Origin: a virus
Length of the DNA: 31,210 nt
Virus record (IMG/VR): IMGVR_UViG_3300007539_000114
Span: 1 to 31,210 of that record
Reading direction: 5' to 3' (one strand)
A model generated the notes under the pieces. It was not told where the DNA came from. It did not search any database and was given only the letters and a program-made list of their open reading frames with translations. The position numbers and the translations under genes are program-made. Shown in pieces: positions 3,432 to 24,007 of the stretch. Numbering within the stretch: the first letter of the stretch is position 1; each line of letters begins with the position of its first letter.

Positions 3432-3781
3432 CCACTTGGCTTCTGAAACTTTTCTAATTTTGAATGTATTGTTGCATCAACTCCTCTCACTTTACAACAA
3501 TATATACTCCGCTGGAAATGTTATTTTTAGGTCAAATGGTCAAACGGGGTAAAAACCCATGCGTTATCAAGGCTTTAGACGCGACCACTTGATGACCACT
3601 TGACCACCAAAAGGTGCTAGATTAGGCCATGTGGCCACTAACAATGAAGCTATCTTCTTAGTGTGCGACCACTAACCATTAGCCACTAACACCCTAGTGG
3701 TCGGACACTAAGGCAGTAGCAGCTACCTGTTAGTGATCGCACACTAGGGTTCTAGCTTATTTCTTAGTGGTCAGTAGTCTA
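3432..3781. repeat. Control region A: AT-rich core plus GACCACT iterons
   Basis: Bases 3411-3863 hold no gene. From left to right: CCACTTGG (3432), AAACTTTTC and an AT-rich stretch with TATATA near 3500, then GGTCAAATGGTCAAA (3530-3544). Next comes a GACCACT cluster whose CACT(T/C) cores begin at 3586, 3597 and 3605, spaced 11 and 8 bases. After GTGGCCACTAAC (3631-3642) there is a field of inverted and single copies of GACCACTAA up to about 3772. The block from 3432 to 3642 is a diverged copy of the region near 23.8-24.0 kb. Iterons beside an AT-rich core next to a primase suggest a replication origin; repressor operators or a partition site would look similar. Confidence 0.8.
3658..3747. promoter_or_regulatory. 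Three dyad sites TTAGTG-N6-CACTAA
   Basis: Three 18-base inverted repeats with a constant six-base centre lie at 3658-3675 (TTAGTG/CACTAA), 3694-3711 (CTAGTG/CACTAA) and 3730-3747 (TTAGTG/CACTAG). Their starts are exactly 36 bases apart. A half site TTAGTG at 3764-3769 follows. Equal spacing and symmetry point to a dimeric DNA-binding protein occupying several sites on the same face region of the helix. The nearby small helix-turn-helix protein is one candidate ligand, which is inference only. Confidence 0.7.
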
Positions 3782-3818
3782 TCGGTGCATCAATAAGTTT
3801 GTACCAGGACCGTAGATA

Positions 3819-3840
3819 TGTTAAGATATAAATATCTTAA
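3819..3840 (+). promoter_or_regulatory. Palindrome overlapping a possible promoter before the HTH gene
   Basis: TTAAGATATAAATATCTTAA (3821-3840) is a perfect 9-base inverted repeat around AA, ending 23 bases before the start codon at 3864. TG at 3819-3820 followed by TAAGAT (3822-3827) gives an extended -10-like element inside the palindrome. A repressor bound here would cover the promoter. It is also AT-rich enough to be simply a melting element. Confidence 0.45.
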
Positions 3841-3863
3841 ACCCCTTATTAAGCGAGAAGCAA

Positions 3864-4100
3864 ATGAATGAGATACAAATCCACGCCACAGTCCTAGCCT
3901 TAGAGGTGATGAAGGAGCTGATGCGTGATGTCCCTGATGTATATGCGGATATTGAGCTGACAGCTCTTAAGCATATCTTTAACGCTGGAATGAAACGCAA
4001 CCTCTCGGTGTCCGAGCTCGCCAGGCTGCTCCGCTGCACAGAGCAAGAGGCCTGCGATAAGATGGCCGCTGTCCGTTGGAGGTTAGATAATGAAAGCTAA
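3864..4100 (+). CDS. Small helix-turn-helix protein (78 aa)
   Basis: This is a 78-residue protein with a C-terminal segment, about 45-75, that reads like a helix-turn-helix: LSVSELARLLRCTEQEACDK, followed by a basic tail ending RWRLDN. The N-terminal half is an amphipathic helix rich in L, M and acidic residues and could dimerise. It is the first rightward gene after control region A and overlaps the next gene by 11 bases, so the two are probably translationally coupled. The ribosome site (GAGAAG about three bases before ATG) is poor. Inference: a transcription factor or replication accessory protein acting at the adjacent repeats. Not assigned to a named family. Confidence 0.7.
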   Translation: MNEIQIHATVLALEVMKELMRDVPDVYADIELTALKHIFNAGMKRNLSVSELARLLRCTEQEACDKMAAVRWRLDNES

Positions 4101-5253
4101 GCCTTCAGAATTAACCCATGTGTCGGCCTCTTCTATTGGCCTGTTCCAACGCTGTCCTAAGCGCTGGTATTACAGCTACCTGCTTGGCATTAAAGGCAAG
4201 ACCACTGATGCGATGACCCGAGGGTCTAAAGTCCATGAGCAGCTTGAGAAGTATCTTAAGGACGGGACTAAGCCAGACGAGAATACAACCGCTGGGCTCA
4301 TCGCCTCTAAAGGCCTCGATCTAATCCCAGAGCCGAGCGAAGATAACAAGATCGAGCTTAGTCTGGCCGAGTTTCCTGTACCTGGGCTCCCCATCCCCTT
4401 CAAAGGCTTCATCGACTATCTGGTTACTGATGCTGAAGATGGCATCATCGAGGTCGGAGATCACAAGACTACTTCTGCTTGGAAGTGGGCAAAGACAGAG
4501 GAGGAGCTCGCGGAGAATACCCAGCTCATCATCTACGCTAGACATGTACTAGAGCATAACCCCGATGCACTGCTTATCAGGCTGACCCACGTCTATTATC
4601 TAACGCGCCCGCCTCACGGGTCGAAGAAGGTAAGTGTTGTGGTTAGCCGCAGCCATGTGTATCACGAGTTTAATCTTATCCTTAAAGTAGTCCAGGAGAT
4701 GCTCGACACCGCAGAGCAGACTCTTGACCACGCCCCAAAGAACAACAAAGACTGCTTCGCTTACGGCAAGCGCTGCACCCAGTATGACGAGTGCTGGCAC
4801 ACAATCACAAGAACGGAGACACTACCCATGAGTAATAAGCAAGAAGATGTCCTGGCCTTCCTCAGAGGCGAGACGGAAGCTAAAGAAGAAGCACTTGTGC
4901 AGATCGACGAGCCGACCGGCGCAGTCTCACCAGTGGAGGGCCCAGTAACCGCGCCCACGCACTTCACCTGCGATGGTGTTGTCATCTACATCGGCTGCCG
5001 CCCTGTCAGCGGGTCTATTACACCGCTCTATGAGCAGCTGGAGTGGATGATCGAGGAAATCTGTAGATGCAACGGAGATGTACAGCATCTAAGCGACATT
5101 AAATACGGCAGAGGCTACGAGCTCCTGGCTCAGAAGTTTATGTCTGACGGCATCCCTAACGGCGAATACTACATGCCGTCTAACACCGTCCTATGCCACA
5201 AGCTCATGGACGCGATGGTGGCTAAGGCTGCTAAGGTCGTGATTGCAGGTTAA
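4090..5253 (+). CDS. RecB/Cas4-like PD-(D/E)XK exonuclease with four-cysteine cluster
   Basis: The first 240 residues match the PD-(D/E)XK exonuclease family. The N-terminus SASSIGLFQRCPKRWYYSYL (12-31) is the classic opening of these enzymes. It continues with GSKVHE (H49), GFIDYL (D109), EVGDHKT (D124, K126) and QLIIYA (Q145). C22 together with C222, C229 and C235 has the spacing of the Fe-S cluster that staples AddB, Cas4 and related nucleases. Residues from about 245 to 387 form an acidic linker and an additional domain that I do not recognise. GGAGG lies seven bases before the ATG, which overlaps the HTH gene. Followed by an SNF2 helicase, it probably processes DNA ends in phage recombination or replication. 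There is no cas1/cas2 nearby, so a CRISPR role is not implied. Confidence 0.85.
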   Translation: MKAKPSELTHVSASSIGLFQRCPKRWYYSYLLGIKGKTTDAMTRGSKVHEQLEKYLKDGTKPDENTTAGLIASKGLDLIPEPSEDNKIELSLAEFPVPGLPIPFKGFIDYLVTDAEDGIIEVGDHKTTSAWKWAKTEEELAENTQLIIYARHVLEHNPDALLIRLTHVYYLTRPPHGSKKVSVVVSRSHVYHEFNLILKVVQEMLDTAEQTLDHAPKNNKDCFAYGKRCTQYDECWHTITRTETLPMSNKQEDVLAFLRGETEAKEEALVQIDEPTGAVSPVEGPVTAPTHFTCDGVVIYIGCRPVSGSITPLYEQLEWMIEEICRCNGDVQHLSDIKYGRGYELLAQKFMSDGIPNGEYYMPSNTVLCHKLMDAMVAKAAKVVIAG

Positions 5254-5271
5254 GTCCAGCTGTGATACACT
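5243..5271 (+). promoter_or_regulatory. Probable promoter of the SNF2 helicase-terminase block
   Basis: TTGCAG (5243-5248) is separated by 17 bases from TACACT (5266-5271), which is preceded by TG to give the extended -10 TGATACACT (5263-5271). It overlaps the end of the nuclease gene and lies about 37 bases before the next start codon. The 12-mer TGATACACTGAA recurs exactly at 28288-28299. Confidence 0.6.
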
Positions 5272-5273
5272 GA

Positions 5274-5300
5274 AGCCATCCCCATAGACTAAGGATGGCT
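5274..5300 (+). promoter_or_regulatory. Hairpin sequestering the SNF2 helicase ribosome binding site
   Basis: AGCCATCC (5274-5281) pairs perfectly with GGATGGCT (5293-5300) across an 11-base loop. The right arm includes the GGA of the AAGGA Shine-Dalgarno (5291-5295) for the ATG at 5308. There is no T tract, so a terminator is unlikely. As the predicted RNA start is near 5278, the left arm would be at or close to the 5' end of the message made from the adjacent promoter, and would be intact on transcripts reading through from upstream. Confidence 0.5.
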
Positions 5301-5307
5301 CAGTAAA

Positions 5308-7008
5308 ATGAATGACCAACTAAAACACCTCTTCGATGATGATGATGTTGAGGTGGTAAGCGAGACTCAAGTCTCAGAAGCAGTGCGCATACAAAGACTA
5401 CCGACCTATGAGTATGAGTCGGTAGATTTAACGTCGCAGTTTAAAACGCCCGAAGGGACGATGACGCTGCGCCCCTTGCAGAACAAGGCACTAAAGTCGT
5501 GCTTAGACGCGCAAGGAGGCGTGCTGCTCCTGGGTTGTGGTGTCGGTAAGACACTTATCTCGTTCTTATTGCCAGAAGTGATGAAGGCTAAGCGACCCTT
5601 ATTACTCTTACCTGCATCTCTGGTCGAGAAGACCAAAGCAGAGTTTTTTAGCTATGAAGCTAACTTCAGGATTAAGCTACCTGAGATATTCAGCTATGAG
5701 CGTTTATCTAGGCGCACGGCGCAGCAGTATCTCACAAAACTAAAGCCTGACTTAATAATCGCTGATGAGGCGCACCACCTCAAGTCCATCGACAGCACCA
5801 GGACCGGGCGCCTGGGTAAGTACCTGGTTAATAATCCCAGCTGTAAGTTTGTAGTTATGAGCGGCACTCTATTTAATAAGAGTGTAGCCGACTTCGCGCA
5901 CCTCGCTGACTGGGCTTTAGAAGAAGGCTCACCAGTCCCTAATAATCACCGCGACGTTGAGGTCTTCGATCTGGTGCTTACAGGCGAAGCTAACGGCTAT
6001 CAGTACCAGCAGTTTAATCCCATGATGGAGTGGGGGAGCTCGCCTCGCGAGGCTGTCTTTAACAGACTCAACGCCACAAAGGGTGTCGTCCTTACTACTG
6101 ATGAGGCCGTGCCTGCCTCTCTGCGTGTGATTAAGCTCAAAGGTGAAGTGCCAGAGGAGCTTCAGACCGCGATTAACAAGTGCTTCGAGTCTGGAGTTAT
6201 GAGCGATGTACTTAAGGGCATGGACCTCGACTTCGATATAGACGCTGTTAACGCCAGCCAGCATCTGTGGGATGACACAGACCAGTTTGCACTAAGGGCC
6301 CTGGGGCAGATGCTCAGCGGCTGCCTCTATTACTGGGAGTGGCCCGATAGCACGCCTGATGATGAGTGGCTTCTAGCTCGTAAAGAGTGGAGGCGAGCAG
6401 TAAGGATCATCAGGGAGATGGACATAGAAAACTTCGACTCGCCGCATATTATAGAGACGGACTTCCAAAAACTCCCGCAAGATATTGTCGATGCGTTCGG
6501 AAAGTCGCGCAACAAATGGTTTGAAGTTAAGCACCGACCAGAGCCCCCGCGCAAGTCTGTCTGGGTGTCGGAGTATATGCTCGATTATGTCCAGGCCTGG
6601 GTCGATGAGCAGACAACGCCCTATATCATCTGGGTCGATGGCGTCCAGCTTGGTGATAAGTTAAGCGAGCGCTTAGGGATCACTTACTACGGCGCGGGCG
6701 CAACACTCCCTTCCACAGCAGAGCCCTGCATCATGTCTATAAGATCGCATGGAACAGGTAAAAACCTTCAAGCCTGGCATGTTAATCTTGTTGTAGGCGC
6801 TGTCGCTGACCCATCTATCTGGGAGCAGATGATCGCCAGAACACACCGCAACGGGCAAGAGGCTGATGAGGTCTTAGTCTATACCTTTAATCACTCTATC
6901 TTCGGGAGCAGCTTTGGACGAGCTTATAAACAGGCTAAGGTAGTGTCGGACACCACCGGACAGCCTCAAAGGATAGTCTACGCTGACTCCCTCTCAAGGA
7001 GGCTGTAA
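5308..7008 (+). CDS. SNF2-type superfamily 2 helicase / DNA translocase
   Basis: This 566-residue protein has the ordered motifs of an SF2 ATPase: Walker A GCGVGKT (76-82), motif II ADEAHH (152-157), motif III SGTLFNK (185-191) and a C-terminal motif VI RTHRNGQ (511-517), which is the SWI2/SNF2 form. About 320 residues separate motif III and VI, with a charged, tryptophan-rich middle that carries no known accessory domain. Inference: it moves along or remodels DNA during replication or recombination, probably with the upstream nuclease. The ATG follows AAGGA at nine bases. Its stop overlaps the terminase small subunit start (TAATG), coupling replication and packaging genes in one transcript. 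Confidence 0.88.
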   Translation: MNDQLKHLFDDDDVEVVSETQVSEAVRIQRLPTYEYESVDLTSQFKTPEGTMTLRPLQNKALKSCLDAQGGVLLLGCGVGKTLISFLLPEVMKAKRPLLLLPASLVEKTKAEFFSYEANFRIKLPEIFSYERLSRRTAQQYLTKLKPDLIIADEAHHLKSIDSTRTGRLGKYLVNNPSCKFVVMSGTLFNKSVADFAHLADWALEEGSPVPNNHRDVEVFDLVLTGEANGYQYQQFNPMMEWGSSPREAVFNRLNATKGVVLTTDEAVPASLRVIKLKGEVPEELQTAINKCFESGVMSDVLKGMDLDFDIDAVNASQHLWDDTDQFALRALGQMLSGCLYYWEWPDSTPDDEWLLARKEWRRAVRIIREMDIENFDSPHIIETDFQKLPQDIVDAFGKSRNKWFEVKHRPEPPRKSVWVSEYMLDYVQAWVDEQTTPYIIWVDGVQLGDKLSERLGITYYGAGATLPSTAEPCIMSIRSHGTGKNLQAWHVNLVVGAVADPSIWEQMIARTHRNGQEADEVLVYTFNHSIFGSSFGRAYKQAKVVSDTTGQPQRIVYADSLSRRL

Positions 7009-7691
7009 TGCCAAAATCAAATAAACAGGACTTAGTTGGCCAGGAGGTATATCTGCCTTCTTCTGATGGCGAGCAGATTAAGATCGAAGTTAGCGACAGT
7101 GAGGTTGTGTCCAGCGGGCGCGACTTAGAGCTGGTGCTTACACATCAGAAGCTGCACGGTTTAGATGTCCCTAAACGAAAACAAGGGACCCTTAGCCCTA
7201 TTGATAAGGAGCGCTGGCTTGTTGTTATAGAGACACTAATGCAGCGCGGGGTGAAGTCTATCCGCGAGCTCACAGACATTACTGGCCTCGGGACAAACAG
7301 AGCCGGAGAGTTCGTGAGAGAGGTGCGCGAGCGCTGGGCGAGCTCCTTAACTATGGGCCAAGTAAACTCCAGGCGCGAGCAGATATACTTGGAGGCTGAG
7401 CGGGTTAAGGATGAATGTTGGCGAGCGCTTCAACTTACCGATAACGAGTCTATGAGGCTGGCTTATCTTAAGATGATTATCGACTGCGGTAAGCGACAAT
7501 CTGCCCTCATAGGTGCAGAGCGCATCAATGTTAATGTAGAGTCTAAGACAGTAGCCGCCCACAAGACAGCAGAAGAGATGGAGGCTGAGGTCGCTAAGAA
7601 CCTTTCTATCTCAGTGGAGCAGTTTAGCGCCATCGGTGAGATGTTGTCGAAGCAGCTAACTCTTCATAGAAAGGACACTCCCGATGACTAA
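7008..7691 (+). CDS. Probable terminase small subunit
   Basis: This 227-residue protein lies directly before the large terminase and overlaps it by eight bases, the usual position of the small subunit that recognises phage DNA and starts packaging. Residues about 82-110 (GVKSIRELTDITGLGTNRAG onward) look like a helix-turn-helix. Residues 121-170 form a long charged helical region of the type used for ring oligomerisation. The N-terminal 60 residues are acidic and unrecognised. AAGGAGG lies five bases before the ATG, which shares one base with the previous stop. The call rests on position and general architecture rather than a clear family motif. Confidence 0.72.
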   Translation: MPKSNKQDLVGQEVYLPSSDGEQIKIEVSDSEVVSSGRDLELVLTHQKLHGLDVPKRKQGTLSPIDKERWLVVIETLMQRGVKSIRELTDITGLGTNRAGEFVREVRERWASSLTMGQVNSRREQIYLEAERVKDECWRALQLTDNESMRLAYLKMIIDCGKRQSALIGAERINVNVESKTVAAHKTAEEMEAEVAKNLSISVEQFSAIGEMLSKQLTLHRKDTPDD

Positions 7692-9366: not shown

Positions 9367-9387
9367 AGTGAAGCGGTAGACATAACG

Positions 9388-9400: not shown

Positions 9401-9435
9401 ACACAATCTAATCTCTAACCTATAGGAGTGTCATT

Positions 9436-9759: not shown

Positions 9760-9770
9760 GGAGGTGCTAG

Positions 9771-12700
9771 ATGGCTATTCTATCAGGTGATGACGCAACC
9801 ACAAAGGAGCCCGGTCTTGTCCGTCTTGCCACGGTAAACGAGACTCTGGCTGGGACTAGCGAGAGTATCGCGACCACTCCTTTAGGTGTTGCTAGTTATG
9901 TAGCGCAGCTTATTGGCTCCGCGCCCGCAGCGCTAAACACGCTACAAGAGCTCGCTGAAGCCATCGAGGGAGATGACGACTTCTACCTCCGTGTCCAGGC
10001 TCTTGAAAGCACAGCTACTTCTCACGGCACTCGGCTTACTGCTGCGGAGTCTAGCATCTCGACTTTACAGTCTGAGATGGACGCGGCAGAGTCCAGTATC
10101 GCCACTTTGCAATCTGACCTTAATACCGCTGAAGCTAACATTAGCTCTAACGACTCCGACATCGCAGGCATCCTTACCAGGCTGACTGCTGCTGAGTCTG
10201 ACATTTCCGACTTGGAGACACACACCCATATTAACGGTGGAACGTCAAGCACAGCGCTCCAGAGTGAAGTTGATGATATTGAGGCTGCGGTAGGGCTTGC
10301 GACTGACGGCACTTATGTTTCCCGATCAGGGACCAACTACCTTAACTCTGCATCTTCTATCACTGGCGAGATTAGCGCCCTTGATACTCAGGTTAAAAGC
10401 AACGCAGACGCAATCAGCGCACTGCAATCAGGTAGCTCTGGCACGTCGGCTAATCAAGGTGAGGTCGATGACATTGAAGCAGCTGTCGGATTAGCTTCCG
10501 ATGGCACTTATGTCTCTCGGTCCGGGACTAACTACCTGGACACAGCCTCTTCTATTGTCGGTGAGATCAGCGCCCTTGACACCCAGGTGGCGTCTAACGC
10601 GAGCTCTATCTCTAGCAATAGCTCTGCGATTAGCTCTAACGACAGCGACATCTCGGCGCTTCAGGGACGCATGACCACTGCGGAGTCTGACATCAGCGCA
10701 CTTGAGAGTGATGTTGCGACCTTGCAGAGCGATGTATCGGCGCTCCAAGCTGCGGCTGAGCAGACGGAGCTGGATGCTACCCAGTCTGGAGCAGGTCTTA
10801 ACGCTGACGGTAGTTATAGCGCTAATTCCAGCGCTAACTACATCGCTTCGGCCACTACGCTTAAAGACGCGGATAACAAGCTCGATGCCCAGATCAAGGA
10901 CAACGCTGACGACATCAGCTCCCTCCAGACTTCGGTATCAAGTGTCCAGAGCTCGCTTAGCACAGCGCAGTCTAACATTACACAGCTGCAATCTGATGTA
11001 GGTGGTAATGATAACGACATCAGCGCCCTTCAAACGCGAATGACTACTGCTGAAGGCGACATTACTCAGCTTGAGACTGATGTAGCCGGAAACGACAGCG
11101 ACATCTCTGCACTACAAACGGAGATGACCGCTACTCAGGCAGGCGCTGGGCTTGGAACCGATGGCAGCTTCACAGCGGCAAGCGGCTCTAACTACTTAAC
11201 TACAGCCTCAAGCATCCGTGGTGAGACTTCTGCGCTCGACACTCAGGTGAAGGCTAATGCAGATGCTATCTCCACTAACGCCTCTGACATTGATGCGTTA
11301 GAGACGGATGTAGCTACACTGCAAAGCGACCTGTCTACGGCGCAAGGCAATATCAGCTCTAACGACAGCGACATCAGCTCACTTCAAGGCGATGTTTCTG
11401 GACTTCAGACTGAGGTTGACGCGACCCAAGCAGGCGCAGGGCTTAACGCTAACGGTAGTTATACCGCTAATTCCAGCTCTAATTATCTCACCGCTGCGAG
11501 CTCGCTCAAAGACGCTGACGATAAGCTAGACGCTGCGATCAAGGACCTCGCTGATGACCTCAGCGCGATCACCTCTGGCACCTCTGGTTCCGCATCACTC
11601 TCAACCCTCCAGGCTGAGATTAACGCAACCCAAACCGGAGCTGGCCTCGATCCTGATGGGGATTACACCGCGAATAGTAGCACCAACTATCTAGCCTCTG
11701 CGACTTCACTTGTAGATGCTGATGAGAAGCTGGACACCGCTATCGACGGACTAGATACTCGCCTCACTTCGGCGGAGTCGAGCATCCTCAGTATCAGCTC
11801 ATCTGTTAGCTCTAATGCCTCTAGTATCAGCGCTAACAGCTCAGCGATTAGCTCTAACGACTCTGACATCGCAACCCTTCAGGCAGCGGTCAGCAGCAAC
11901 GACACAGACATCTCTGGCTTAGGCACGCGCCTAACTACAGCCGAAGGCGAGATTGACACTCTCCAGACTGAGATGGATGATGTTGAAGCTGATGTCGCGA
12001 CTTTGCAAAGCACGGTTAGCGGCCACACTACTAGCATCGCGTCTAACCTCTCAGCTATCCAGTCTAACGACTCTGACATCTCAGGGCTCGACACTAGACT
12101 TACTGCTGCGGAGTCAGACATTGATGATCTGGAGACGCTGACTACCTCGCATGCCAGCACCCTTACCAGCCTTGCTTCGCAGATCAGCAGCAACGACACA
12201 GACATCAGCGGGCTCGACACTCGGCTTACCGCAGCGGAGAGCGACATTGATGACCTGGAGACTGACGTTGCTTCTAACTTAGCGGCGATCCAGTCTAACG
12301 ACACGGATATTGCAGGGCTCGGCACTCGGATGACTACTGCGGAGAGCGACATCACTAGCCTTGAGGCTGATGTTGCTTCTAATCTGTCAGCGATCCAGTC
12401 TAACGACTCTGACATCTCTGGCTTAGACACGCGCTTAACCGCAGCTGAAGGCGACATTGATGACCTGGAGACTCTGACAACTTCGCATGCCAGCACCCTG
12501 ACTTCTCTACAGAGTCAGATCACGGGTAATGACAGCGATATTGCAGGGCTCACCACGCGCATGTCTACGGCAGAGGCTAACATTACCTCTAACGATACAG
12601 ACATCTCTGGCTTAAACACGCGCTTAACCGCAGCTGAGTCAGATATTGATGATCTTGAGGCTGATGTTGCTTCTAACCTCGCGGCTATCCAGTCCAATGA

Positions 12701-13637
12701 CAGCGACATCACCAGCCTTCAGTCAACGCAGAGCTCCCACTCTTCGACGCTGACCAGCTTGCAGAGCCAGATTACGGCTAATGATAGCGACATCAGCACC
12801 AACGCAAGTGGCATCAGCTCTAACGCGAGCAGCATCAGCTCCAACTCCAGCAGCATCAGCGCTCTACAAACAGAGGTTAATGCTGTCGAGTCCGGCGCTG
12901 GGTTAAGTGCTTCTGGAGCTTATGTCGCTAATTCTAGCGCTAACTATATCGCTACAGCGACCAGCTTGGCTGACGCTGACGATAAACTAGACGCAGCAAT
13001 CGCAGCACGAGCCTCTGCTATTAGCGGGCTCGACACCCGTCTCACCGCTGCCGAGTCTGATATTGATGATCTGGAGACATTGACCACCTCGCATGCCTCC
13101 AGCCTCAGCTCTATCCAGTCGGACCTCGACACTGCGGAGAGCAACATCACTACCTTGCAGTCAGAGATGGATGCTGTGGAGTCAACCAACACTTCACAAG
13201 CATCTACTCTAACGTCTCACGGAAGTCGTCTTACAAGCCTGGAGTCTAACGACTCTGCGCAGGACAGCGACATCTCCGACCTCGACTCTCGCGTTACTAC
13301 TCTTGAGGGCTCTGTAGCAACTTCTACGAACCTCACGAACCTCACTAACCGGGTTTCAACTAATGAGGGAGACATTGACGACCTTGAGACTCTGACGGCC
13401 ACCCATACCACCGATATTGCACAGGCAAATGCTAGGCAAGGTGGTATTTGGACTCAGGACTCAAATACGGTAGTATACACCCCTAGTGATTTCACCATCC
13501 GACAATCTTATGGCGCCTGGGCTTATAATCCTGTCTCGACTGACTATGTGTTTATAGCTCCTCAAGGTGGCCCTGGTGATAGGCACTGGGATTACGAAGG
13601 ATCATCTGGAAACATCATTTTCACAGGAGTAGCATAA
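9771..13637 (+). CDS. Giant coiled-coil tail fibre protein (1288 aa)
   Basis: This is a very long, low-complexity fibre. The N-terminus has a phage fibre repeat, PGLVRLATVNETLAGTSESI (14-33) followed by ATTPLG, then LNTLQELAEAIEGDDDF (about 56-72). Both are common in T4-type and many other tail fibres and probably lie near the virion end. The body alternates heptad-like coiled-coil units, such as SNDSDISGLDTRLTAAE, with seven copies of a beta-like insert containing GAGL or AVGL, then NY and then DxKLDA. The last 70 residues (GGIWTQDSN onward) are non-repetitive and aromatic and may be the receptor tip or a joint to the next fibre part. A very strong AAGGAGGT site precedes the ATG. It is probably a trimer. 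The stop overlaps the next fibre gene as TAATG. Confidence 0.85.
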   Translation: MAILSGDDATTKEPGLVRLATVNETLAGTSESIATTPLGVASYVAQLIGSAPAALNTLQELAEAIEGDDDFYLRVQALESTATSHGTRLTAAESSISTLQSEMDAAESSIATLQSDLNTAEANISSNDSDIAGILTRLTAAESDISDLETHTHINGGTSSTALQSEVDDIEAAVGLATDGTYVSRSGTNYLNSASSITGEISALDTQVKSNADAISALQSGSSGTSANQGEVDDIEAAVGLASDGTYVSRSGTNYLDTASSIVGEISALDTQVASNASSISSNSSAISSNDSDISALQGRMTTAESDISALESDVATLQSDVSALQAAAEQTELDATQSGAGLNADGSYSANSSANYIASATTLKDADNKLDAQIKDNADDISSLQTSVSSVQSSLSTAQSNITQLQSDVGGNDNDISALQTRMTTAEGDITQLETDVAGNDSDISALQTEMTATQAGAGLGTDGSFTAASGSNYLTTASSIRGETSALDTQVKANADAISTNASDIDALETDVATLQSDLSTAQGNISSNDSDISSLQGDVSGLQTEVDATQAGAGLNANGSYTANSSSNYLTAASSLKDADDKLDAAIKDLADDLSAITSGTSGSASLSTLQAEINATQTGAGLDPDGDYTANSSTNYLASATSLVDADEKLDTAIDGLDTRLTSAESSILSISSSVSSNASSISANSSAISSNDSDIATLQAAVSSNDTDISGLGTRLTTAEGEIDTLQTEMDDVEADVATLQSTVSGHTTSIASNLSAIQSNDSDISGLDTRLTAAESDIDDLETLTTSHASTLTSLASQISSNDTDISGLDTRLTAAESDIDDLETDVASNLAAIQSNDTDIAGLGTRMTTAESDITSLEADVASNLSAIQSNDSDISGLDTRLTAAEGDIDDLETLTTSHASTLTSLQSQITGNDSDIAGLTTRMSTAEANITSNDTDISGLNTRLTAAESDIDDLEADVASNLAAIQSNDSDITSLQSTQSSHSSTLTSLQSQITANDSDISTNASGISSNASSISSNSSSISALQTEVNAVESGAGLSASGAYVANSSANYIATATSLADADDKLDAAIAARASAISGLDTRLTAAESDIDDLETLTTSHASSLSSIQSDLDTAESNITTLQSEMDAVESTNTSQASTLTSHGSRLTSLESNDSAQDSDISDLDSRVTTLEGSVATSTNLTNLTNRVSTNEGDIDDLETLTATHTTDIAQANARQGGIWTQDSNTVVYTPSDFTIRQSYGAWAYNPVSTDYVFIAPQGGPGDRHWDYEGSSGNIIFTGVA
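10276..13020 (+). repeat. Seven beta-like modules interspersed in coiled coil of the first fibre
   Basis: Copies of a module of about 40 residues, pattern (Q/A)xGAGL-x-x-x-G-x-Y-x-x-(N/R)SxxNY followed by SL-x-DADDKLDA or SI-x-GEISALDTQ, begin near 10276, 10480, 10783, 11138, 11428, 11632 and 12887. Between them lie many copies of a coiled-coil unit of about 21-28 residues (NDSDI...LTAAESDI). Two module subtypes exist: GEISALDTQ and DADDKLDAAI. Near-identical DNA words such as TCTAACGACTCTGACATC recur. Confidence 0.8.
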
Positions 13638-16600
13638 TGGCTTCAGTCAGACCCGAAACTAATAACACCCACGATTTAGGTACATCTACCTATAAGTGGG
13701 CTACCGTGCATGCGGTAGATGTACAAGCCGCCACCATTACCACTTCAGGTGATGTGGAGATCGGCGGTAATCTTACAGTTAGTGGTACATCCACCACGCT
13801 CGACGTAAGCACCATCACCGTAGAAGACCCTCTACTTCGCCTCGCGAAGTCCAACTCAGCAGACAGCGTTGACATCGGTTTCTTCGGTGAGATCGTTGAC
13901 GGCGCGACCACTGAGTATGTCGGTTTGTACCGCGATGCGAGCGATGGGAAGTTTAAGTTCTTCGAGAGCGCGAGCGCAGCGCCCACGACTACTGTCAGCG
14001 GAGGCTCTACTGCTACAGTCGTCGCTAACATCGAGGGCTCACTTACTGGTAATGCCGACACCGCTACTTCTGCGGCGGCTCTTACTACGGCTCGCACTAT
14101 CTCGATCTCAGGAGATGCCAGCGGCTCTGTGAGCTTCGACGGCTCGGCAGACGCAGACATCGCACTGACCATCGGAAGCGGTGCAGTAGACAACGCTATG
14201 CTGGCTAACAGCACCTTGACCTTCTCAGATGGCACCAACTCAGAGGCGCTCGCACTTGGTGCGACTCTTGAGATCGGCGGGACCGCTAATGAGGTCGAGG
14301 TTGCTTACTCAGCAGCTAACAACAAGTTTACTGTCGGGCTCCCTGACGATGTTAGCATCGCTGGCGATCTCACAGTCTCTGGTACTATCAACGCGACCAT
14401 CGAAGGTACATCAGACCAGGCTAACTCGCTTGCGACCGCTCGCACGATCTCACTCGGTGGTGATCTTGGGGGCTCTGCTTCCTTCGATGGCTCTGCTGAC
14501 ATCACCATTACAGCTACCATCCAGAGTGGCAGTGTTGATAACAGCATGCTCGCTAACGATGGATTTAGCCTCAAGCTGGCGGGTGTAAGCCAGGAAGACA
14601 TCAACCTCGGTGATGCTCTTAACTTCGCTGGTACTTCTAACGAGGTCGAGGTCGCTTACGACTCCGCCTCTAATACTCTTACTTTTGGGCTTCCAAGCAG
14701 CATCACTGCCGCGCTCGTTGGTAATGCGTCTACCGCTTCGGCATGGCAGACCGCACGAACCTTGAGCCTCGGTGGTGATCTTGGCGGGTCTGTTAGCATC
14801 GACGGGTCAGCAGACGCTACTCTTACAGCAACTATCCAGAGCGGTAGTGTTGATAACAGCATGCTCGCTAACTCTGGAATTACTGTCGGTGATGGGACGA
14901 CCTCAGAGGCTATCGCTCTCGGAGGCTCCTTCAGCATCGAAGGCACCAGTAATGAGGTTGAGGTTAGCTACGACTCTGCAAACGACCGCTTCTCAGTGGG
15001 TCTTCCAAGCAGCGTTAGCGGCCTCTCTTCCGTAAGTGCAACCAGCCTCGCTGGAGAGCTTACTGGTAATGCTTCTACTGCAACTAAGCTCGCTACTTCG
15101 CGCACCTTGTCTATCAGCGGAGACGCATCCGGCTCAGCGAGCTTCGATGGGTCGGCTAATGCAGACATCGCACTTACTATCGCAGCGGGCGCTGTAGACA
15201 ACTCTATGCTTGCGAATGATGGGATCAGCCTCCAGCTCGGCGGTGTCGCTCAAGAAGACATCAACCTGGGAGACAGCCTTAACTTCGCAGGGACCGCTAA
15301 TGAGGTCGAGGTTGCTTACGCTTCCGCATCGAACACGCTACAGTTCGGCCTGCCTTCTACTATCTCGGCAGCTCTTTCTGGTAATGCCTCTACTGCTTCG
15401 GCGTGGCAGTCGTCGCGCACCATCAGCTTAGCTGGTGATCTCGGCGGCTCTGTCAGCGTTGACGGTTCGGCTGATGCGACCCTCACCGCTACTATCCAGG
15501 CTGGGTCTGTTGACAACAGCATGCTCGCCAACGACGGCATCACTGTTAGCGACGGGACTAACTCTGAGGAAATCCAGCTGGGACAGACCTTCACCATCGC
15601 TGGTACTTCTAGTGAGGTGGATGTTGCTTATGTCGCTGGCGACAACAAGTTTAACATCAGTCTGCCTGCGACCATCAACGCAGATACTACTGGTAATGCT
15701 TCTACCGCATCTGCGCTGGCAACTTCACGTTCTATCGCGCTCAGCGGAGATGTTACTGGGTCCGGGAGCTTCGATGGCTCTGGCGACCTTACTATTTCTA
15801 CTACTCTCGCAGGCGGCACCGCGCTCACCTTTAGCGATGGGACTAACTCTGAGGCACTCGACCTTGGCTCTACTATCACCCTGCAAGGGACGAGCTCTGA
15901 GGTTGATGTCAGCTATGACACGAGCTCTAACACTTATACAGTGGCCCTTCCAGCAACTGTCAGCGCTGACCTCTCAGGTAATGCTACATCTGCCGACGCA
16001 CTTAGCACCGCTCGCACCATCGCTCTATCTGGCGATGTTACGGGCTCAGGTTCGTTTGATGGCAGCGCTAACCTCACCATCTCCACTACTCTGGCTGGTG
16101 GTACCGCTCTTACTTTCAGCGACGGTACTAACTCTGAGGCTCTTTCCCTGGGCTCTACTCTTGAGATCGGCGGGACTGCTAATGAGGTTGAGGTTGCGTA
16201 TAGCTCAGCTGCTAATAAGTTTACTGTTGGGCTTCCTGATGATGTAACCATCGCAGGCGACCTCACAGTCTCTGGGACTATCACTGGTACTGTTAACGCT
16301 AACTCGGCAACGGCAACTAAGCTCGCGACTGCACGAACCATCTCCCTCGGAGGTGATCTCGGCGGGTCAGCGAGCTTCGATGGGTCGGCTGACATCACCA
16401 TCACGTCTACCATCCAGAGTGGCGCGGTCGATAACAGCATGCTCGCGAATGACCACATCGGGCTCAAGCTCGGTGGTGTCGCGCAAGAGAATATCGCCCT
16501 GGGTGATGATCTCGACTTCGTGGCCGGTCAGGACCTCGACATCGCTTACAATAGCACGACTAACGCGCTGACCTTCAGCCTCGAGTCTGAGATTGATAGC

Positions 16601-18331
16601 GACACTACTGGTAATGCTGCAACCGCATCTGCCCTTGCAACTTCGCGCACGCTTAGCGTCAGCGGTGATGCTTCTGGTAGCGTTAGCTTCGACGGTAGCG
16701 CTGATGCTGACATCGCGCTCACGATTGCGGCTGGTGCAGTTGACAACAGCATGCTCGCTAACGACGGCTTTAGCCTCTCGCTTAACGGCAGCGCTCAAGA
16801 AGACATCAACCTTGGCGACAGCCTCGACTTCAACGGCACTGCTAACCAGGTTGACATCGCTTACTCGGCGTCTGGTAATGATCTTACCTTCAGCCTCCCA
16901 AGCACGATCAACGTAGACACCTCTGGTAATGCGGCCACTGCTACTGCACTGGCAACTTCGCGCACCTTGAGCGTCTCTGGTGATGCAACGGGCTCTGCTT
17001 CTTTCGACGGGTCTGCTAACGCTGACATCGCTTTGACCATCGCGTCAGGCGCAGTCGATAACAGCATGCTTGCTAACGATGGGTTTAGCCTCCTGGTGGA
17101 TAGTGTCTCTCAAGAAGACATCAACCTTGGAGACAGCCTTAACTTCATCAGTGGGCAGGACATCGACATCGCCTACAACAGCACCACCAACCAGCTCAGC
17201 ATCGCGCTCGAAGGTACTATCGACAGCGATACTACTGGAAACGCTGCAAGCGCTGATAAGTGGTCTGCGGGTCGCACCATCTCCCTCGGAGGCGATCTTG
17301 GAGGCTCTGTAGTTGTTGATGGGTCTTCTGACGCAACGCTTACTGCGACCATCCAGTCCGGTAGCGTTGAGAATAGCATGCTCGCTAACAGCCAGATCAC
17401 TCTCGCGGCTGACTCTGGCTCTAACGACCCAGTGGCGCTCGGTGAGACGATCACTATCTCTGGTACTGCTAATGAGATCGAGACGGCTGCTGCTGGTTCT
17501 AACCAGATCACCATCGGCCTTCCGAATAACGTTACCATCGGCAATAACCTCACCGTGAGCAACGACCTCACAGTCTCAAGCGGTGATGTAGAGTTGACTG
17601 ACGGGACGCTCTCTATCCTTGGTGGAGGTGCTTCTATCAGCGGCACTGTAACCATCAACGGAACGCACACCATCAACGGCAGCCTCATCGCTAACTCTGC
17701 GACGATGAAGTTTGAAGACAGCCTCCTGGAGCTCGGCTACACGAACACCAGCGCTGTTGACCACGGCTTCTTCTCTAAGCACAGCGATGGCGACTATGTT
17801 GGTATGGCCTTCGATCAGTCTGCTGGCGAGTTTATCGCTTTCAAGACTGGCACCAAGCCTGCCTCGACTGTAGACACTACCGCTGGTGATTATGCAGCTG
17901 CTGACCTCCGCGTTGACAGCCTCCAGGCAGGTGGTGATGTTGTTGCGAGCTCCGCGCTCATCAACAAGGCCGCTAAGAGCCAGTTTAACAAGCTCAGCTT
18001 CGCATCTGTCTCTGGGTCGAACACCACGCTCTCGGGCTCTCAGCTCGTCGGCGGCGCGATCCTTAGAGACGCAACTAACGATGAGACTGATGCAACGGCA
18101 ACGGCTGCTCAGATCGTCGCTGCGATGCCTGCTGAGGCGCGTGTTGCTGACATGACCTTCGAGTTTAAGATCATCGTGTCTAACAGCTCTGCGGGTTATA
18201 GCTTCACCGCTGGCTCTGGTGTAACCATTGTCGGAAGCTCTAGCTACCTTGTTGATGGCGTCCATAACTACCTGGTCCGTATTACCAACGCGACCGCGAG
18301 TAGCGAGGCGGTAACTATCTACAAGGCATAA
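13637..18331 (+). CDS. Giant beta-repeat tail fibre protein (1564 aa)
   Basis: This second giant fibre is translationally coupled to the first (TAATG, AGGAG six bases upstream). The N-terminus PETNNTHDLGTSTYKWATVH (6-25) and NLTVSGTSTTLD followed by EDPLLRLAKSN and DIGFFGEI (about 45-86) match modules common in T4-like and cyanophage fibres. About eleven repeats of roughly 105 residues follow, each with (T/S)RT(I/L)S-x-x-GD-x-xGS, FDGS(A)D, VDNSMLAN and EVEVAY. A second copy of the GFF module (FEDSLLELGYTN onward) closes the array, followed by a C-terminal tip ending TIYKA. The repeats are likely beta-strand units in a trimeric shaft. Function: host attachment, inferred from family and size. 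Confidence 0.85.
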   Translation: MASVRPETNNTHDLGTSTYKWATVHAVDVQAATITTSGDVEIGGNLTVSGTSTTLDVSTITVEDPLLRLAKSNSADSVDIGFFGEIVDGATTEYVGLYRDASDGKFKFFESASAAPTTTVSGGSTATVVANIEGSLTGNADTATSAAALTTARTISISGDASGSVSFDGSADADIALTIGSGAVDNAMLANSTLTFSDGTNSEALALGATLEIGGTANEVEVAYSAANNKFTVGLPDDVSIAGDLTVSGTINATIEGTSDQANSLATARTISLGGDLGGSASFDGSADITITATIQSGSVDNSMLANDGFSLKLAGVSQEDINLGDALNFAGTSNEVEVAYDSASNTLTFGLPSSITAALVGNASTASAWQTARTLSLGGDLGGSVSIDGSADATLTATIQSGSVDNSMLANSGITVGDGTTSEAIALGGSFSIEGTSNEVEVSYDSANDRFSVGLPSSVSGLSSVSATSLAGELTGNASTATKLATSRTLSISGDASGSASFDGSANADIALTIAAGAVDNSMLANDGISLQLGGVAQEDINLGDSLNFAGTANEVEVAYASASNTLQFGLPSTISAALSGNASTASAWQSSRTISLAGDLGGSVSVDGSADATLTATIQAGSVDNSMLANDGITVSDGTNSEEIQLGQTFTIAGTSSEVDVAYVAGDNKFNISLPATINADTTGNASTASALATSRSIALSGDVTGSGSFDGSGDLTISTTLAGGTALTFSDGTNSEALDLGSTITLQGTSSEVDVSYDTSSNTYTVALPATVSADLSGNATSADALSTARTIALSGDVTGSGSFDGSANLTISTTLAGGTALTFSDGTNSEALSLGSTLEIGGTANEVEVAYSSAANKFTVGLPDDVTIAGDLTVSGTITGTVNANSATATKLATARTISLGGDLGGSASFDGSADITITSTIQSGAVDNSMLANDHIGLKLGGVAQENIALGDDLDFVAGQDLDIAYNSTTNALTFSLESEIDSDTTGNAATASALATSRTLSVSGDASGSVSFDGSADADIALTIAAGAVDNSMLANDGFSLSLNGSAQEDINLGDSLDFNGTANQVDIAYSASGNDLTFSLPSTINVDTSGNAATATALATSRTLSVSGDATGSASFDGSANADIALTIASGAVDNSMLANDGFSLLVDSVSQEDINLGDSLNFISGQDIDIAYNSTTNQLSIALEGTIDSDTTGNAASADKWSAGRTISLGGDLGGSVVVDGSSDATLTATIQSGSVENSMLANSQITLAADSGSNDPVALGETITISGTANEIETAAAGSNQITIGLPNNVTIGNNLTVSNDLTVSSGDVELTDGTLSILGGGASISGTVTINGTHTINGSLIANSATMKFEDSLLELGYTNTSAVDHGFFSKHSDGDYVGMAFDQSAGEFIAFKTGTKPASTVDTTAGDYAAADLRVDSLQAGGDVVASSALINKAAKSQFNKLSFASVSGSNTTLSGSQLVGGAILRDATNDETDATATAAQIVAAMPAEARVADMTFEFKIIVSNSSAGYSFTAGSGVTIVGSSSYLVDGVHNYLVRITNATASSEAVTIYKA
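14084..17392 (+). repeat. Array of about eleven ~105-residue beta repeats in the second fibre
   Basis: Eleven copies of the unit (A/T)(T/S)(A/S)RT(I/L)S-x-x-GD-x-xGS were counted by eye. Nine run on to VDNSMLAN or a close variant such as VENSMLAN or VDNAMLAN. Two adjacent copies (about 15700-16120) replace this with LAGGTALTFSDG. Protein conservation is high, but codons vary: the VDNSMLAN peptide is encoded by several different synonymous strings, for example at 14530, 15190, 16428 and 17053. Confidence 0.85.
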
Positions 18332-19481: not shown

Positions 19482-19491
19482 GAGTGGCCTG

Positions 19492-20193: not shown

Positions 20194-20734
20194 GCACCTG
20201 CAACACCGCATTAAGACTTGTCTATCGCTGGCTGAGCTGTCGCCTTGCAAGAGGAGGCAGTTCGGTTGTGTGATTATAGACCCTAAGTCTAACGTCATGC
20301 TTAGCGAAGGTTATAACGGTAATCTTCGTGGCGGGACGGAGCTCTGCGGTGGCGCTGTGTGTGATAGACGAGATATTGAGTCTGGCACCCAGCTTGAAGT
20401 TGGCTGTGTCCATGCCGAGCAGAACGCGATATATAATGCTGCTCGTTTAGGGACACCTTTAGCTGGCTCCTGGTTTATAGTTAATGGTGAGCCTTGTAGA
20501 CTATGCGCTAAAGCTATAGTGCAGGTGGGCGCGTCCAAAGTGATCTGCATCGACGGAGGTTATTCTTGCTCCGAAGGTGTAGAGCTCCTGAAGAAGAGTG
20601 ATGTAGAAGTCGTTAAAGTTAATAAAGACTTAAGCGATGTCGCTAAGGCCATTGATGCTCGTCTCGGGGCGACTTATATCAGGCCAATGCGACCAGCGGA
20701 GATGACTAAGAGCCCCTTCTCACTACCTACCTAA
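20183..20734 (+). CDS. Deoxycytidylate (dCMP) deaminase
   Basis: This 183-residue zinc deaminase has HAE at 77-79 and PCRLC at 104-108, the two zinc-binding and catalytic motifs, with additional cysteines C22, C55 and C60 that may bind a second zinc as in several dCMP deaminases. It converts dCMP to dUMP, the substrate of the adjacent ThyX. The ATG lies inside the end of thyX and lacks a well-spaced ribosome site (AAGGA is 14 bases away), so it probably depends on coupling. A general deoxycytidine-type deaminase cannot be excluded from motifs alone, but the ThyX partner favours dCMP. Confidence 0.92.
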   Translation: MKSKHLQHRIKTCLSLAELSPCKRRQFGCVIIDPKSNVMLSEGYNGNLRGGTELCGGAVCDRRDIESGTQLEVGCVHAEQNAIYNAARLGTPLAGSWFIVNGEPCRLCAKAIVQVGASKVICIDGGYSCSEGVELLKKSDVEVVKVNKDLSDVAKAIDARLGATYIRPMRPAEMTKSPFSLPT

Positions 20735-20747
20735 AAGCCTGATGATA

Positions 20748-20756
20748 TGTTATTAT
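20748..20756 (+). promoter_or_regulatory. Probable promoter of the head gene block
   Basis: TGTTATTAT (20748-20756) is an extended -10 element in the short gap between the deaminase and portal genes, 35 bases before the portal ATG. No good -35 is visible at 16-18 bases. Confidence 0.5.
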
Positions 20757-20790
20757 TTAGCACTATCATTAAGAGAGCGAGGTAAACACC

Positions 20791-22257
20791 ATGAATATTT
20801 TCCAACGTGTCGCGACCTGGGTCGGACTGGGCAATAATAATAGCGACTATATCCCTGACGATCTTATCAAGGCGCTGCCGCCTCCAGATAAGGACGCTCC
20901 AGAACCGGGCGCCATCCAAGTGGCGGCTACCGATATAGCTAACTCCTACATGATGGCCAACGCCACTGATGAGAATATGCCAGAGTCGCATCGCGGGCTG
21001 GACTACAATCAGCTTAAGGCCATGTCTAGGATGCCGCTTATCGCTGCCATTATCCAGACTCGGATTAACCAGATCGCTGAGTTTGCTAAGCCTTCGCAAG
21101 AGGGAGACGACATCGGTTTCCAGATCAGGCTTAAAGATAGAGCTGCCATCCCATCAGATGATGATCTGCTAACTATCCAGCAGATATACGATTTTATGCT
21201 TAGCTGCGGAGACAACCGCATTGATTTCGAGTCTAACTTCGAGGCGTTCTTACGCATGTTAGTTAGAGACAGCCTCACTTACGACCAGGCTTGTTTTGAA
21301 GTAGTCAGAAGCAGAAGCGGTAATGTAGCTGGCTTTATGAATGTAGACAGCTCGACTATCCGACGCGCTAAGATGTCAGAGCAGGAGCGCGAGAAGGGAC
21401 GACGCGATCCAGAAGGCATCCACTTCGTCCAGGTACATCAGAACAAAGTTAAGGCGCAGTTTGGCGCTAAAGACATGTGCTTCGGTATTAGACGGCCTCG
21501 CTCAGAGATTAGATTTAAAGGCTACGGCTTCCCCGAGCTCGAAGAGTCTATCGGAGTGATGACCAACCTGCTTAACGCTGAAATCTATAACGCCAGCAAC
21601 TTCACTAACGGCATCTCGGTAAGTGGTATTGTCGCAGTTAAGACTAAGATGAACCCGCAGCTCTTCCGCGCATTTAGACGCGAGTTTTATGCGATGTTAA
21701 GCGGGGCCCATAACTCTAAGAAGACTCCGTTGATCCAGCTCGATCCCGATAATAACGAGGATTTAAAGGCACTTAACTTGTCTCAGAGCAACGCAGAGAT
21801 GGAGTTTGAGAAGTGGATTAACTACAACATCAGGCAGCTCTGCGCCATCTTCCAGATCGACCCGGCTGAGGTCGGCTTCTCGTTTGGTGATGTCGGCGTT
21901 AAGTCTACACTTAACCAGCGTGGGCCTGTAGAGAAAGTCTTGATGAGTAAGGAGAAGGGACTTAGACCTCTGCTTCGCGCCATCGAGTCCTGGCTTAATA
22001 AGTATGTAGTTAACGAGCTCGATGAGAGGTTTGAGCTAGTCTTCACAGGTATGGACGTTACACCTGTTGAGAAGCAGCTAGAGATGGACATTAAGAAGGT
22101 GGGCGCGTTTATGACTGTAAACGAGATGCGAGCTGCCTATGACATGGAGCCTCTTCCTGGAGGTGATGTAATTCTAAACCAGGTCGCAGCAGCGGCTATA
22201 ATGCCCGCAGCCGTTAGCGCTGGAAATAAGGAGAGCGACGATGCCCAACCAAAGTAA
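20791..22257 (+). CDS. Portal protein
   Basis: This 488-residue protein has the expected length and features of a phage portal, the dodecameric ring at the capsid vertex through which terminase pumps DNA. Supporting segments are YGFPELEESI, a long helical stem region, and IFQIDPAEVGFSFGD, which corresponds to the common portal segment F-x-V-P-P-x-x-x-G. Near the C-terminus, FMTVNEMRAAYDMEPLPGGD matches the widespread T-x-N-E-x-R-x-x-x-G-L-x-P-x-x-G-G-D motif. GAGG lies eight bases before ATG. It overlaps the next gene by 17 bases. Confidence 0.93.
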   Translation: MNIFQRVATWVGLGNNNSDYIPDDLIKALPPPDKDAPEPGAIQVAATDIANSYMMANATDENMPESHRGLDYNQLKAMSRMPLIAAIIQTRINQIAEFAKPSQEGDDIGFQIRLKDRAAIPSDDDLLTIQQIYDFMLSCGDNRIDFESNFEAFLRMLVRDSLTYDQACFEVVRSRSGNVAGFMNVDSSTIRRAKMSEQEREKGRRDPEGIHFVQVHQNKVKAQFGAKDMCFGIRRPRSEIRFKGYGFPELEESIGVMTNLLNAEIYNASNFTNGISVSGIVAVKTKMNPQLFRAFRREFYAMLSGAHNSKKTPLIQLDPDNNEDLKALNLSQSNAEMEFEKWINYNIRQLCAIFQIDPAEVGFSFGDVGVKSTLNQRGPVEKVLMSKEKGLRPLLRAIESWLNKYVVNELDERFELVFTGMDVTPVEKQLEMDIKKVGAFMTVNEMRAAYDMEPLPGGDVILNQVAAAAIMPAAVSAGNKESDDAQPK

Positions 22258-23713
22258 GACATTTACAGTGCCTCAAGCTGTTAGAAACGCAGCTAAGCGT
22301 GGTTTAGAGCTTCGCAAGGAGCATGGGCGCGGCGGGTTAGACACTCGCCAAGCCAAGAAAGAAGGCGTGGGCTCTGGTGTCCAGCGTGCCTCTAATCTGA
22401 TCCAAGGCAAGGTCAGCTATGCCACCGTTAAAAGGATGCTCGCCTTCTTCCGTAGACACGAAGTATATAAGCGTGAAGGGCATCACAAGGACCGATCATC
22501 TGCGAGTTATATTAGCTGGTTGATCTGGGGAGGCGACCCAGGCTATTCCTGGGCTAGACGCATCGTTAAGCAGGAAGAGAAGGTCGAGAAGGGCAGCTTC
22601 TTAGCGACGGTTTTATTTGGTGATGACTTCCCTGAAGATGAGATGGAGGCAGAGGCTGCCCCTATTACTAGTTTTAGTGAGCTCCTCAAGGCAGCTAAGC
22701 GCAAGCCTGACTTTATGGATATAGCGGGTCGAGAGCGGATCGAGGCAGAGGCTGATGAAGAGACTGATGTTGATCCCGAAGATGTAGACCCAGCACCTGT
22801 ACCTGAAGACGCGATCCCTGCGGAAGAGCCGCCTCTATCTGATGCGGAGCTCGAAGAGGCTTTAGAAGAGTTTGGTGAAGAGTCTGATGATGAGGTCGAG
22901 AAGGGTGTTGTTGTATTAGACATCGCCAGCGGGGAAGAGGAGAAAGACGAAGAAGAAGAAGAAGATGACTCTTCACTTGCAGACACACTCCCGGCGCCAG
23001 AAGTGCCTCCGCCAGAGGTAGACCTGGCTCTGCAACTTATAGACTTTGTGCCTGATGTTATTGTGAGCCCCTATGACCATGTTAAGCTCAAGAAGATTGC
23101 TAAGAAGGGGCGCAAGCTCCACGGTGTAGAACGCGCAGCCAAGAAGCAGGGCCTATACATCATGCGAGGCCAGTGGGCCCACGTTGATCTCGATCTAGTG
23201 CAGGGCTACCTGTCTTTCATAGACGAGCCCGACATGAAGAAGAACGCTCTAGCTGTTGGCGGCGAAGCGATGTTAGCGGTCATCGAGAAGGCCGAGCCTA
23301 AAGTCCCAGAGAAGTATCTGGAAGGTCTGACGGGTGAAGAACGGGCTAAGCGCAAACGCGAGATACAGCGACGGCTTAAGGACAAGCAGAGCTATAAAGA
23401 GCTGCCTGGAGATAAGGACGCTAAGACTAAGCCCAGTAAGTATACCCGCTCTAGCTTCGCAGCTAAGGTCCGTGAAGAAGTTAAGAAGCCTGGTAAGGAC
23501 GAGTTTCTGCGGGCGGCGGCCAAAGTGTCTGGCATCAGCAAAACCATACTTGATGAGGTCTATGATCGCGGCATGAAGGCGTGGTCAACCAGCGGCCATC
23601 GGCCTGGGGCCTCACCGCAAGCATGGGCTAAAGCTAGAGTCTATTCCTTCTGTACGGGAGGCAAGACGAGAAGAACAGCCGACGCTGATTTATGGCGGAA
23701 GCACAAAAGCTAG
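22241..23713 (+). CDS. Multidomain acidic head-associated protein (490 aa)
   Basis: The N-terminal domain (about 8-112) contains VPQAVRNAAKRGLELRKEHG, a basic helical segment, and SYISWLIWGGDPGYSWARRI, a phage domain often found beside portal genes. A strongly acidic linker follows (about 130-260, with runs of E and D). A second folded region is about 262-350. The C-terminal domain (about 385-490) has the W-x-T/S-G-H-R-P-G-x-x-P-Q-x-W pattern and ends in DADLWRK; it resembles a conserved domain of unknown function in marine phages (DUF5824-like, from memory). AAGGAGAG precedes the ATG. Position suggests a head internal or assembly protein. Function unknown. Confidence 0.8.
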   Translation: MPNQSKTFTVPQAVRNAAKRGLELRKEHGRGGLDTRQAKKEGVGSGVQRASNLIQGKVSYATVKRMLAFFRRHEVYKREGHHKDRSSASYISWLIWGGDPGYSWARRIVKQEEKVEKGSFLATVLFGDDFPEDEMEAEAAPITSFSELLKAAKRKPDFMDIAGRERIEAEADEETDVDPEDVDPAPVPEDAIPAEEPPLSDAELEEALEEFGEESDDEVEKGVVVLDIASGEEEKDEEEEEDDSSLADTLPAPEVPPPEVDLALQLIDFVPDVIVSPYDHVKLKKIAKKGRKLHGVERAAKKQGLYIMRGQWAHVDLDLVQGYLSFIDEPDMKKNALAVGGEAMLAVIEKAEPKVPEKYLEGLTGEERAKRKREIQRRLKDKQSYKELPGDKDAKTKPSKYTRSSFAAKVREEVKKPGKDEFLRAAAKVSGISKTILDEVYDRGMKAWSTSGHRPGASPQAWAKARVYSFCTGGKTRRTADADLWRKHKS

Positions 23714-23723
23714 TGAAGACCAT

Positions 23724-24007
23724 GCGACCACTAAGCTAACACCTTAGTATACGACCACTAAGGATATGACCACTAAGCGACCATTTGGACTTTAAAACTT
23801 TTCGGGATTTGAACATATATATGCAATTCTTATATTGCTCTTTGTAAACTATATATGTTTTCTTAGGTAAGTTAAAATAGGGTCAAATGGTAAAATAGCT
23901 TAATTCCGTATTCATTACATACACTTAACCGCGACCACTAGTTGACCACTTGACCACTTCATCGTGTGCTACAGGCCTATCATTCGCTCACTAATGTGGC
24001 CACTAAC
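23724..24007. repeat. Control region B: second copy of AT-rich core and iterons
   Basis: Bases 23714-24095 hold no gene. GACCACTAA units lie before the core (CACTAA at 23729, 23756 and 23771), including a dyad TTAGTA-TACGAC-CACTAA at 23744-23761. Then come CCATTTGG (23781), AAACTTTTC, an AT-rich stretch with ATATATAT, GGTCAAATGGT (23881-23891), a GACCACT cluster with CACT cores at 23936, 23947 and 23955 (spacing 11 and 8), and GTGGCCACTAAC (23996-24007). The order and spacing follow control region A, while the additional repeats lie on the opposite side of the core. This sits in the middle of the head genes, an unusual place for an origin. Confidence 0.8.

Follow-up and report, generated by a model that had tools for sequence, protein, structure and literature searches.

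The window analysed here is a whole IMG/VR record, a linear fragment of 31,210 bases (G000 among its relatives), whose genes by family or homology include those for a primase-helicase, exonuclease-like and helicase-like proteins, the large terminase subunit, portal, head protease and capsid. The terminase is only ~25% identical to those of isolated phages, which means that the lineage of the window has no cultured members in the collection searched. Collection scans recovered several relatives: a near-identical fragment that carries one of the two regions described below, region B (L006/G002), the contig G001 (L021), and G003, G004, G005 and G006. The two ends of the G001 contig (74,372 bases) overlap by 1,262 bases at 98.8% identity, so that it amounts to an effectively complete genome of ~73 kb, apparently lacking next to nothing and either circular or terminally redundant, with population variation. 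At the DNA level, regions A and B had no match among 50,697 phage records; searches of bacterial genomes with the terminase and the primase-helicase found no relative, and an Rfam scan of the window for RNA elements returned no match. At 9771-18331 lie two very long open frames (1288 and 1564 aa) whose internal repeats are serine/aspartate-rich and coiled; they probably encode tail fibre proteins.

Region A (3411..3863) is a divergent intergenic control module, with the primase-helicase operon to its left and an operon of the 78-aa gene, exonuclease and terminase to its right, with homologs in the corresponding position in G001, G004 and G005. The left box, CCACTTGG at 3432, is followed by an AT-rich core (3450..3529), a putative DNA unwinding element on the basis of its stability rank, and by an adjoining GGTCAAATGGTC box (3530..3541, plus strand), the G001 counterpart of which is AACTTTGGCATTTnGGTC. 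Further right on the plus strand are a triple GACCAC repeat (3581..3607) with spacing of 11 and 8, its units being candidate initiator-binding iterons, and GTGGCCACTAAC (3631..3642). G001 keeps the triple in a TGCCAC-type form, and G003, G004 and G005 keep it in part. Next comes an operator-like dyad array (3658..3772) made up of three TTAGTG-N6-CACTAA-type dyads at 3658, 3694 and 3730, in steps of exactly 36 bases, and an inverted GACCACTAA at 3764; genome-wide shuffles contained a mean of 0.2 and a maximum of 2 such dyads.

Region B (23714..24095) is a control module inside the structural gene cluster, where it separates the gene at 22241-23713 from the gene that starts at 24096, and homologs were found in G001 and G003. 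Here the array comes first, as three GACCACTAA units with a dyad-like TTAGTATACGACCACTAA (23724..23776, plus strand), and leads into the left box of the core, CCATTTGG (23781..23788, plus strand). The AT-rich core (23812..23880), again a putative DNA unwinding element, has inverted arms AACATATATA/TATATATGTT, and to its right on the plus strand lie a GGTCAAATGGT box (23881..23891), a triple GACCAC repeat (23931..23957) with the same spacing of 11 and 8, and a second copy of GTGGCCACTAAC (23996..24007).

The gene to the left of region A at the record end (1..2655, minus strand, cut by that end) encodes a primase-helicase with a VapE-like helicase domain and the AEP-like motif GTGFHMHYF, and its product is a candidate initiator. 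It belongs to the VapE/PriRep1 group, with matches to Pfam PF05272 (4.4e-32) and, by profile, to PDB entry 7pds (3.9e-29), which was also the top Foldseek match (E=1e-7) on a low-confidence model (pLDDT 49.5); among the predicted structures, only this PriRep1 match was taken as usable. Towards the C-terminus, residues 793-861 are predicted to form a winged-helix-like H-H-H-strand-strand arrangement with pLDDT of about 67-78 within the poor overall model. Between this gene and region A lies the gene for a 200-aa protein (2808..3410, minus strand), conserved beside A in G001, G004, G005 and G006. On the other side, a 78-aa possible HTH protein (3864..4100, plus strand) is encoded only in the genomes in which CCACTA arrays occur (the window, G001, G003 and G004). 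It was considered as a universal binder of the core and ruled out, G005 having kept the core at A without the 78-aa gene. The gene to the right of region B (24096..24854, plus strand) encodes a 252-aa protein with weak, non-significant hints of a BRO-N/KilA-N-like fold (model pLDDT 60.8) and no match among isolated phages. The earlier note had taken the 3864 and 24096 products for possible DNA-binding proteins, and no DNA-binding family was matched for either. The protein family scans covered selected proteins, part of the gene set, and among these no G38P-type initiator, loader or DnaB helicase appeared.

That note had also described A and B, from the letters of the window, as homologous control regions that share their motifs in order, and each motif, order and distance that it quoted was found. 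From the left box to GGTCAAATGGT (3530 in A, 23881 in B) the distance is 98 bases in A versus 100 in B, from there to GCGACCACT (3581 and 23931) it is 51 versus 50, and GACCAC recurs at 3583/3594/3602 and at 23933/23944/23952. The alignment of the two regions that it had proposed gave scores well beyond shuffles both with strict scoring (47, with 33 as the highest of 1000 dinucleotide shuffles) and with softer scoring (64, with 34.5 as the highest of 500). Many sites scattered in genes would have spoken against the proposal, and for the nonamer GACCACTAA these were not seen, all five copies in the whole 31,210-base record lying inside A or B. The exact 7-mer GACCACT occurs five further times outside the two regions, and specificity is limited to the longer unit.

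A pair of such regions is correct for the window and too low as a count for the group, as the complete relative G001 has four: A (10.5 kb), B (30.9-31.4 kb), C (56.6-56.9 kb) and D (66.3-66.7 kb), of which A and B occupy the same gene junctions as in the window. The repeat unit of G001 differs from that of the window and forms CTAGTG-N7-CACTAG dyads in steps of ~42 bases, with 14 of the 15 dyads falling within the four modules, so that the same dyad is found at several loci and is rare elsewhere, as looked for in an operator. The fifteenth (N6) lies in a short gap (72172-72386) within a CTAGTG/CACTAG half-site array that has no standout unwinding core, a fifth array upstream of a leftward gene. 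Other versions of the CCACTA unit are present at B in G003 and at A in G004, and G005 has the core at A without a CCACTA array. At its A and B positions, G006 possesses an unrelated inverted pair, GGGAGGGYAGGG, with its members 125 and 126 bases apart (14898-15035 and 35645-35783), which is found nowhere else in its 51.5 kb. A scan of the collection for the G001-type core string AACTTTGGCATTTnGGTC identified seven contigs besides G001, all without an AT-rich core or repeats nearby, and these were taken as chance.

Nine cores from five genomes could be aligned with the order of their elements kept, running from the left CCA box through AT-rich sequence with ATATAT motifs as its boundaries, then a GGTCAAATGG or AACTTTGGCATTT box and CTTAA, to a triple CCAC, the last with spacing of 11 then 7-8. 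The dyad array is on one side of the core, except in D, where both the triple and the array occur on each side. Core orientation is independent of transcription, C being inverted and D symmetric in G001, an arrangement unlike that of a promoter. Region B is also dispensable: in a sister lineage (L044/L045) with conserved gene order around the missing module, the genes on either side of the B position overlap by ATGA, and no module intervenes (junctions near 947 and 7646), and so B is no obligatory promoter. L044/L045 document the gain or loss of a module.

Stability was assessed by a nearest-neighbour measure in 80-bp windows, and also at 50, 100 and 150 bp; the ranks were not built into the selection of regions and are to be read with the caveat that intergenic DNA is generally AT-richer. 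Among all 80-bp windows of the G001 genome, the first four ranks of instability are taken by the cores of modules B, C, D and A, and no other intergenic region outranks the module cores at this size. The B core of the window is the least stable segment of the record at 50, 80, 100 and 150 bp, and the A core ranks third at 80 and 100 bp, fourth at 150 bp and seventh at 50 bp. Cores at B in G003 and at A in G004 rank first in their own contigs, with a similar pattern at the other window sizes for the window, G001, G003 and G004. The G005 core ranks lower (4 to 11), and in G006 the paired elements at A and B include no standout unwinding element by this ranking. Two features looked for in an origin were present, direct repeats adjoining an AT-rich unwinding element (the triple CCAC and the arrays beside the low-stability cores) and two or more homologous copies in a genome (A and B in the window, four copies in G001).

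Module copies co-evolve within genomes. Scores among the G001 copies are 118-258 and do not exceed 55 when these copies are compared with their counterparts elsewhere; the two members of the G006 pair reach 50 with each other and at most 26 with others. The score of A against B in the window (47) resembles the between-genome scores. Within a genome, then, copies tend to remain matched, and it is from genome to genome that the unit changes. The greater likeness of copies within a genome than of counterparts between genomes means that the copies probably share a trans-acting partner, and matched copies would be expected if one protein acted on all modules of a genome.

Promoter-like sequences adjoin both regions. 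Right of A, a candidate extended -10 promoter of the 78-aa gene (3799..3827, plus strand; TTGTAC-N17-TAAGAT with TG) has a conserved counterpart at the corresponding position in G001 and G004, and before the 24096 gene there is a weak candidate promoter with an extended -10, TGaTACACT (24009..24037, plus strand), at the matching place of which G001 has TTGCTC-N17-TATACT. Promoter-like sequence is conserved at A and weaker at B, a result to be read with the consensus scans for sigma-70 promoters and terminators, which gave no excess over shuffles. The candidate promoter of the 78-aa gene has its -10 overlapped by a perfect inverted repeat or hairpin, TTAAGATAT/ATATCTTAA (3821-3840). Similar dyads, TAAGATACAAGTATCTTA and TTAAGATATGCATATCTTAA, stand upstream of the same gene in both G001 and G003, a hint of a second regulator site. 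The curves of GC skew and third-codon-position skew in G001 track gene direction and gave no separate origin signal.

Taken together, these features are best accommodated if A and B are dispersed origin-type elements joined to operator-like dyad arrays, a reading to which a probability of about one half, or slightly better, is assigned. The earlier note had offered a duplicated replication origin and the dispersed operators of one regulator as alternatives; the former best fits the core, where an AT-rich unwinding element is combined with repeats, the latter fits the flanking dyad arrays, and as the elements look compound both may be partly right. The first part would be the ~200-bp conserved core, an AT-rich unwinding element flanked by GGTCAAATGG-type boxes and the triple CCAC repeat, which would most likely act as an origin of replication: an initiator would bind the repeats, open the core by melting and then load the replisome. 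The protein likely to do so is the PriRep/VapE-type primase-helicase that the phage itself encodes next to A. The second part would be the adjacent array of CACTAA half-sites, set as phased dyads near candidate promoters, on which a phage regulator would control firing, transcription or both, with the 78-aa protein as the candidate regulator by co-occurrence. What we infer from this architecture is origin activity, regulation and which proteins bind, the origin reading resting on the unwinding element with its repeats, the multi-copy core, the transcription-independent orientation, the dispensability of B and the candidate initiator beside A.

The modules might instead be purely transcriptional, with one phage regulator on the CACTAA dyads switching promoters on and off for the divergent early genes (A), the head genes (B) and further units (C and D), and with the AT-rich core as promoter DNA containing UP-element-like A/T tracts. 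This explanation has an appreciable chance, at about one in three, and several observations that speak against an origin speak for it: all modules lie in intergenic gaps heading gene blocks, where promoters also belong, the extended -10 promoters right of A are conserved in three genomes, and the core-less fifth array of G001, which precedes another gene, fits plain operators. The regular phase of the dyads (36 bases in the window, about 42 in G001) is like that of operator arrays, and the restriction of the 78-aa possible HTH protein to genomes with CCACTA arrays would suit a regulator of this kind. The lack of a separate skew signal and of a standout unwinding element in the G006 pairs likewise count against an origin. 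On the other side, the 200-bp core is conserved past any need of a promoter and is inverted or symmetric at C and D, B is absent from a sister lineage of the same gene order, and the consensus promoter scans were no better than shuffles.

Two further readings are improbable. Centromere-like or partition sites, or sites of a nucleoprotein scaffold, dispersed as in linear phage-plasmids and serving segregation or genome condensation, would account for several dispersed homologous sites that co-evolve within a genome; strong unwinding elements are unexpected at centromeres, and no ParA/ParB-like or integrase gene was present among the scanned proteins, which are part of the gene set, leaving the partition-like sites proposed in the earlier note unsupported. 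About as improbable are sites for recombination, packaging or concatemer resolution (pac/cos-like sites or recombination hot spots). Recombination between copies could homogenise multi-copy elements within a genome, but the modules are found both near and far from the terminase genes, no nuclease-site signature was seen, and phage packaging sites are normally one per genome.

For the compound origin and operator elements favoured here, the closest functional precedent, by architecture only, is the oriL/oriR pair of Bacillus phage SPP1, where two similar origins with direct repeats and an AT-rich unwinding element are bound by one initiator, one origin lying inside the replication genes and oriR among the late structural genes (PMC6316719). 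Both systems have a homologous pair of repeats with AT-rich DNA, and B, like oriR, lies among structural genes. The SPP1 origins are about 13 kb apart and are used by G38P, a loader and a DnaB helicase, whereas here the distance between the copies is 20 kb, G001 has four of them, the candidate initiator is a primase-helicase and there are additional operator-like dyad arrays. The modules thus resemble the two-origin arrangement of SPP1 without being identical to it.

The closest precedent for the protein would be the SaPI Rep. VapE/PriRep1-class relatives of SaPI and SCC elements bind iterons via a C-terminal domain and are self-loading initiators (PMC7581432). Rep/PriRep1 of SaPI and Cch2 of SCCmec share with the system described here iterons at a putative origin and a self-loading-class VapE/D5 helicase, which in some cases is fused to an AEP primase. 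Their helicases have a C-terminal domain that binds DNA, for which the predicted winged helix of the window protein would be a candidate counterpart, and a VapE/PriRep helicase is encoded by the window itself. The SaPI origin is single and downstream of rep, whereas the elements here are dispersed and A is upstream of the primase-helicase gene, which counts against an origin at A. An origin directly downstream of the primase-helicase gene was not found in G001, where the next gene starts 28 bp downstream and the modules are upstream or elsewhere. The crenarchaeal plasmid pRN1 (orf56/orf904) is a primase-helicase replicon encoded with a small transcriptional repressor, and, in the part of the source consulted, a single replicon for which dispersed homologous modules are not described (PMC4234260).

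Two other systems offer partial parallels. Satellite phage P4 has two separated iteron regions, ori1 and crr, bound by one primase-helicase (alpha), and so resembles the present system in its separated repeat regions and its primase-helicase; P4 is a small satellite in which crr is the required partner of ori1. The stoperators of mycobacteriophage L5 are many dispersed copies of one regulator site, but are short single sites in contrast to the 400-bp modules with an unwinding element described here. Few phages are known to have several homologous origins, and these are poorly understood; SPP1 is the textbook case.

A broader and more doubtful possibility is that of a lytic-type lineage firing its own primase-helicase from two to four dispersed, concertedly evolving origins, in which the operator arrays would couple firing to transcription and copies would come and go between relatives. 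If the origin reading is true, the four near-identical unwinding elements of G001, each with its own array, would make the role of multiple origins testable, candidate roles being faster replication, fork stalling to start concatemer synthesis and the coupling of replication to late transcription. The change of the unit between relatives, with copies matched within a genome, would offer a natural experiment in the co-evolution of a DNA-binding protein and its sites.
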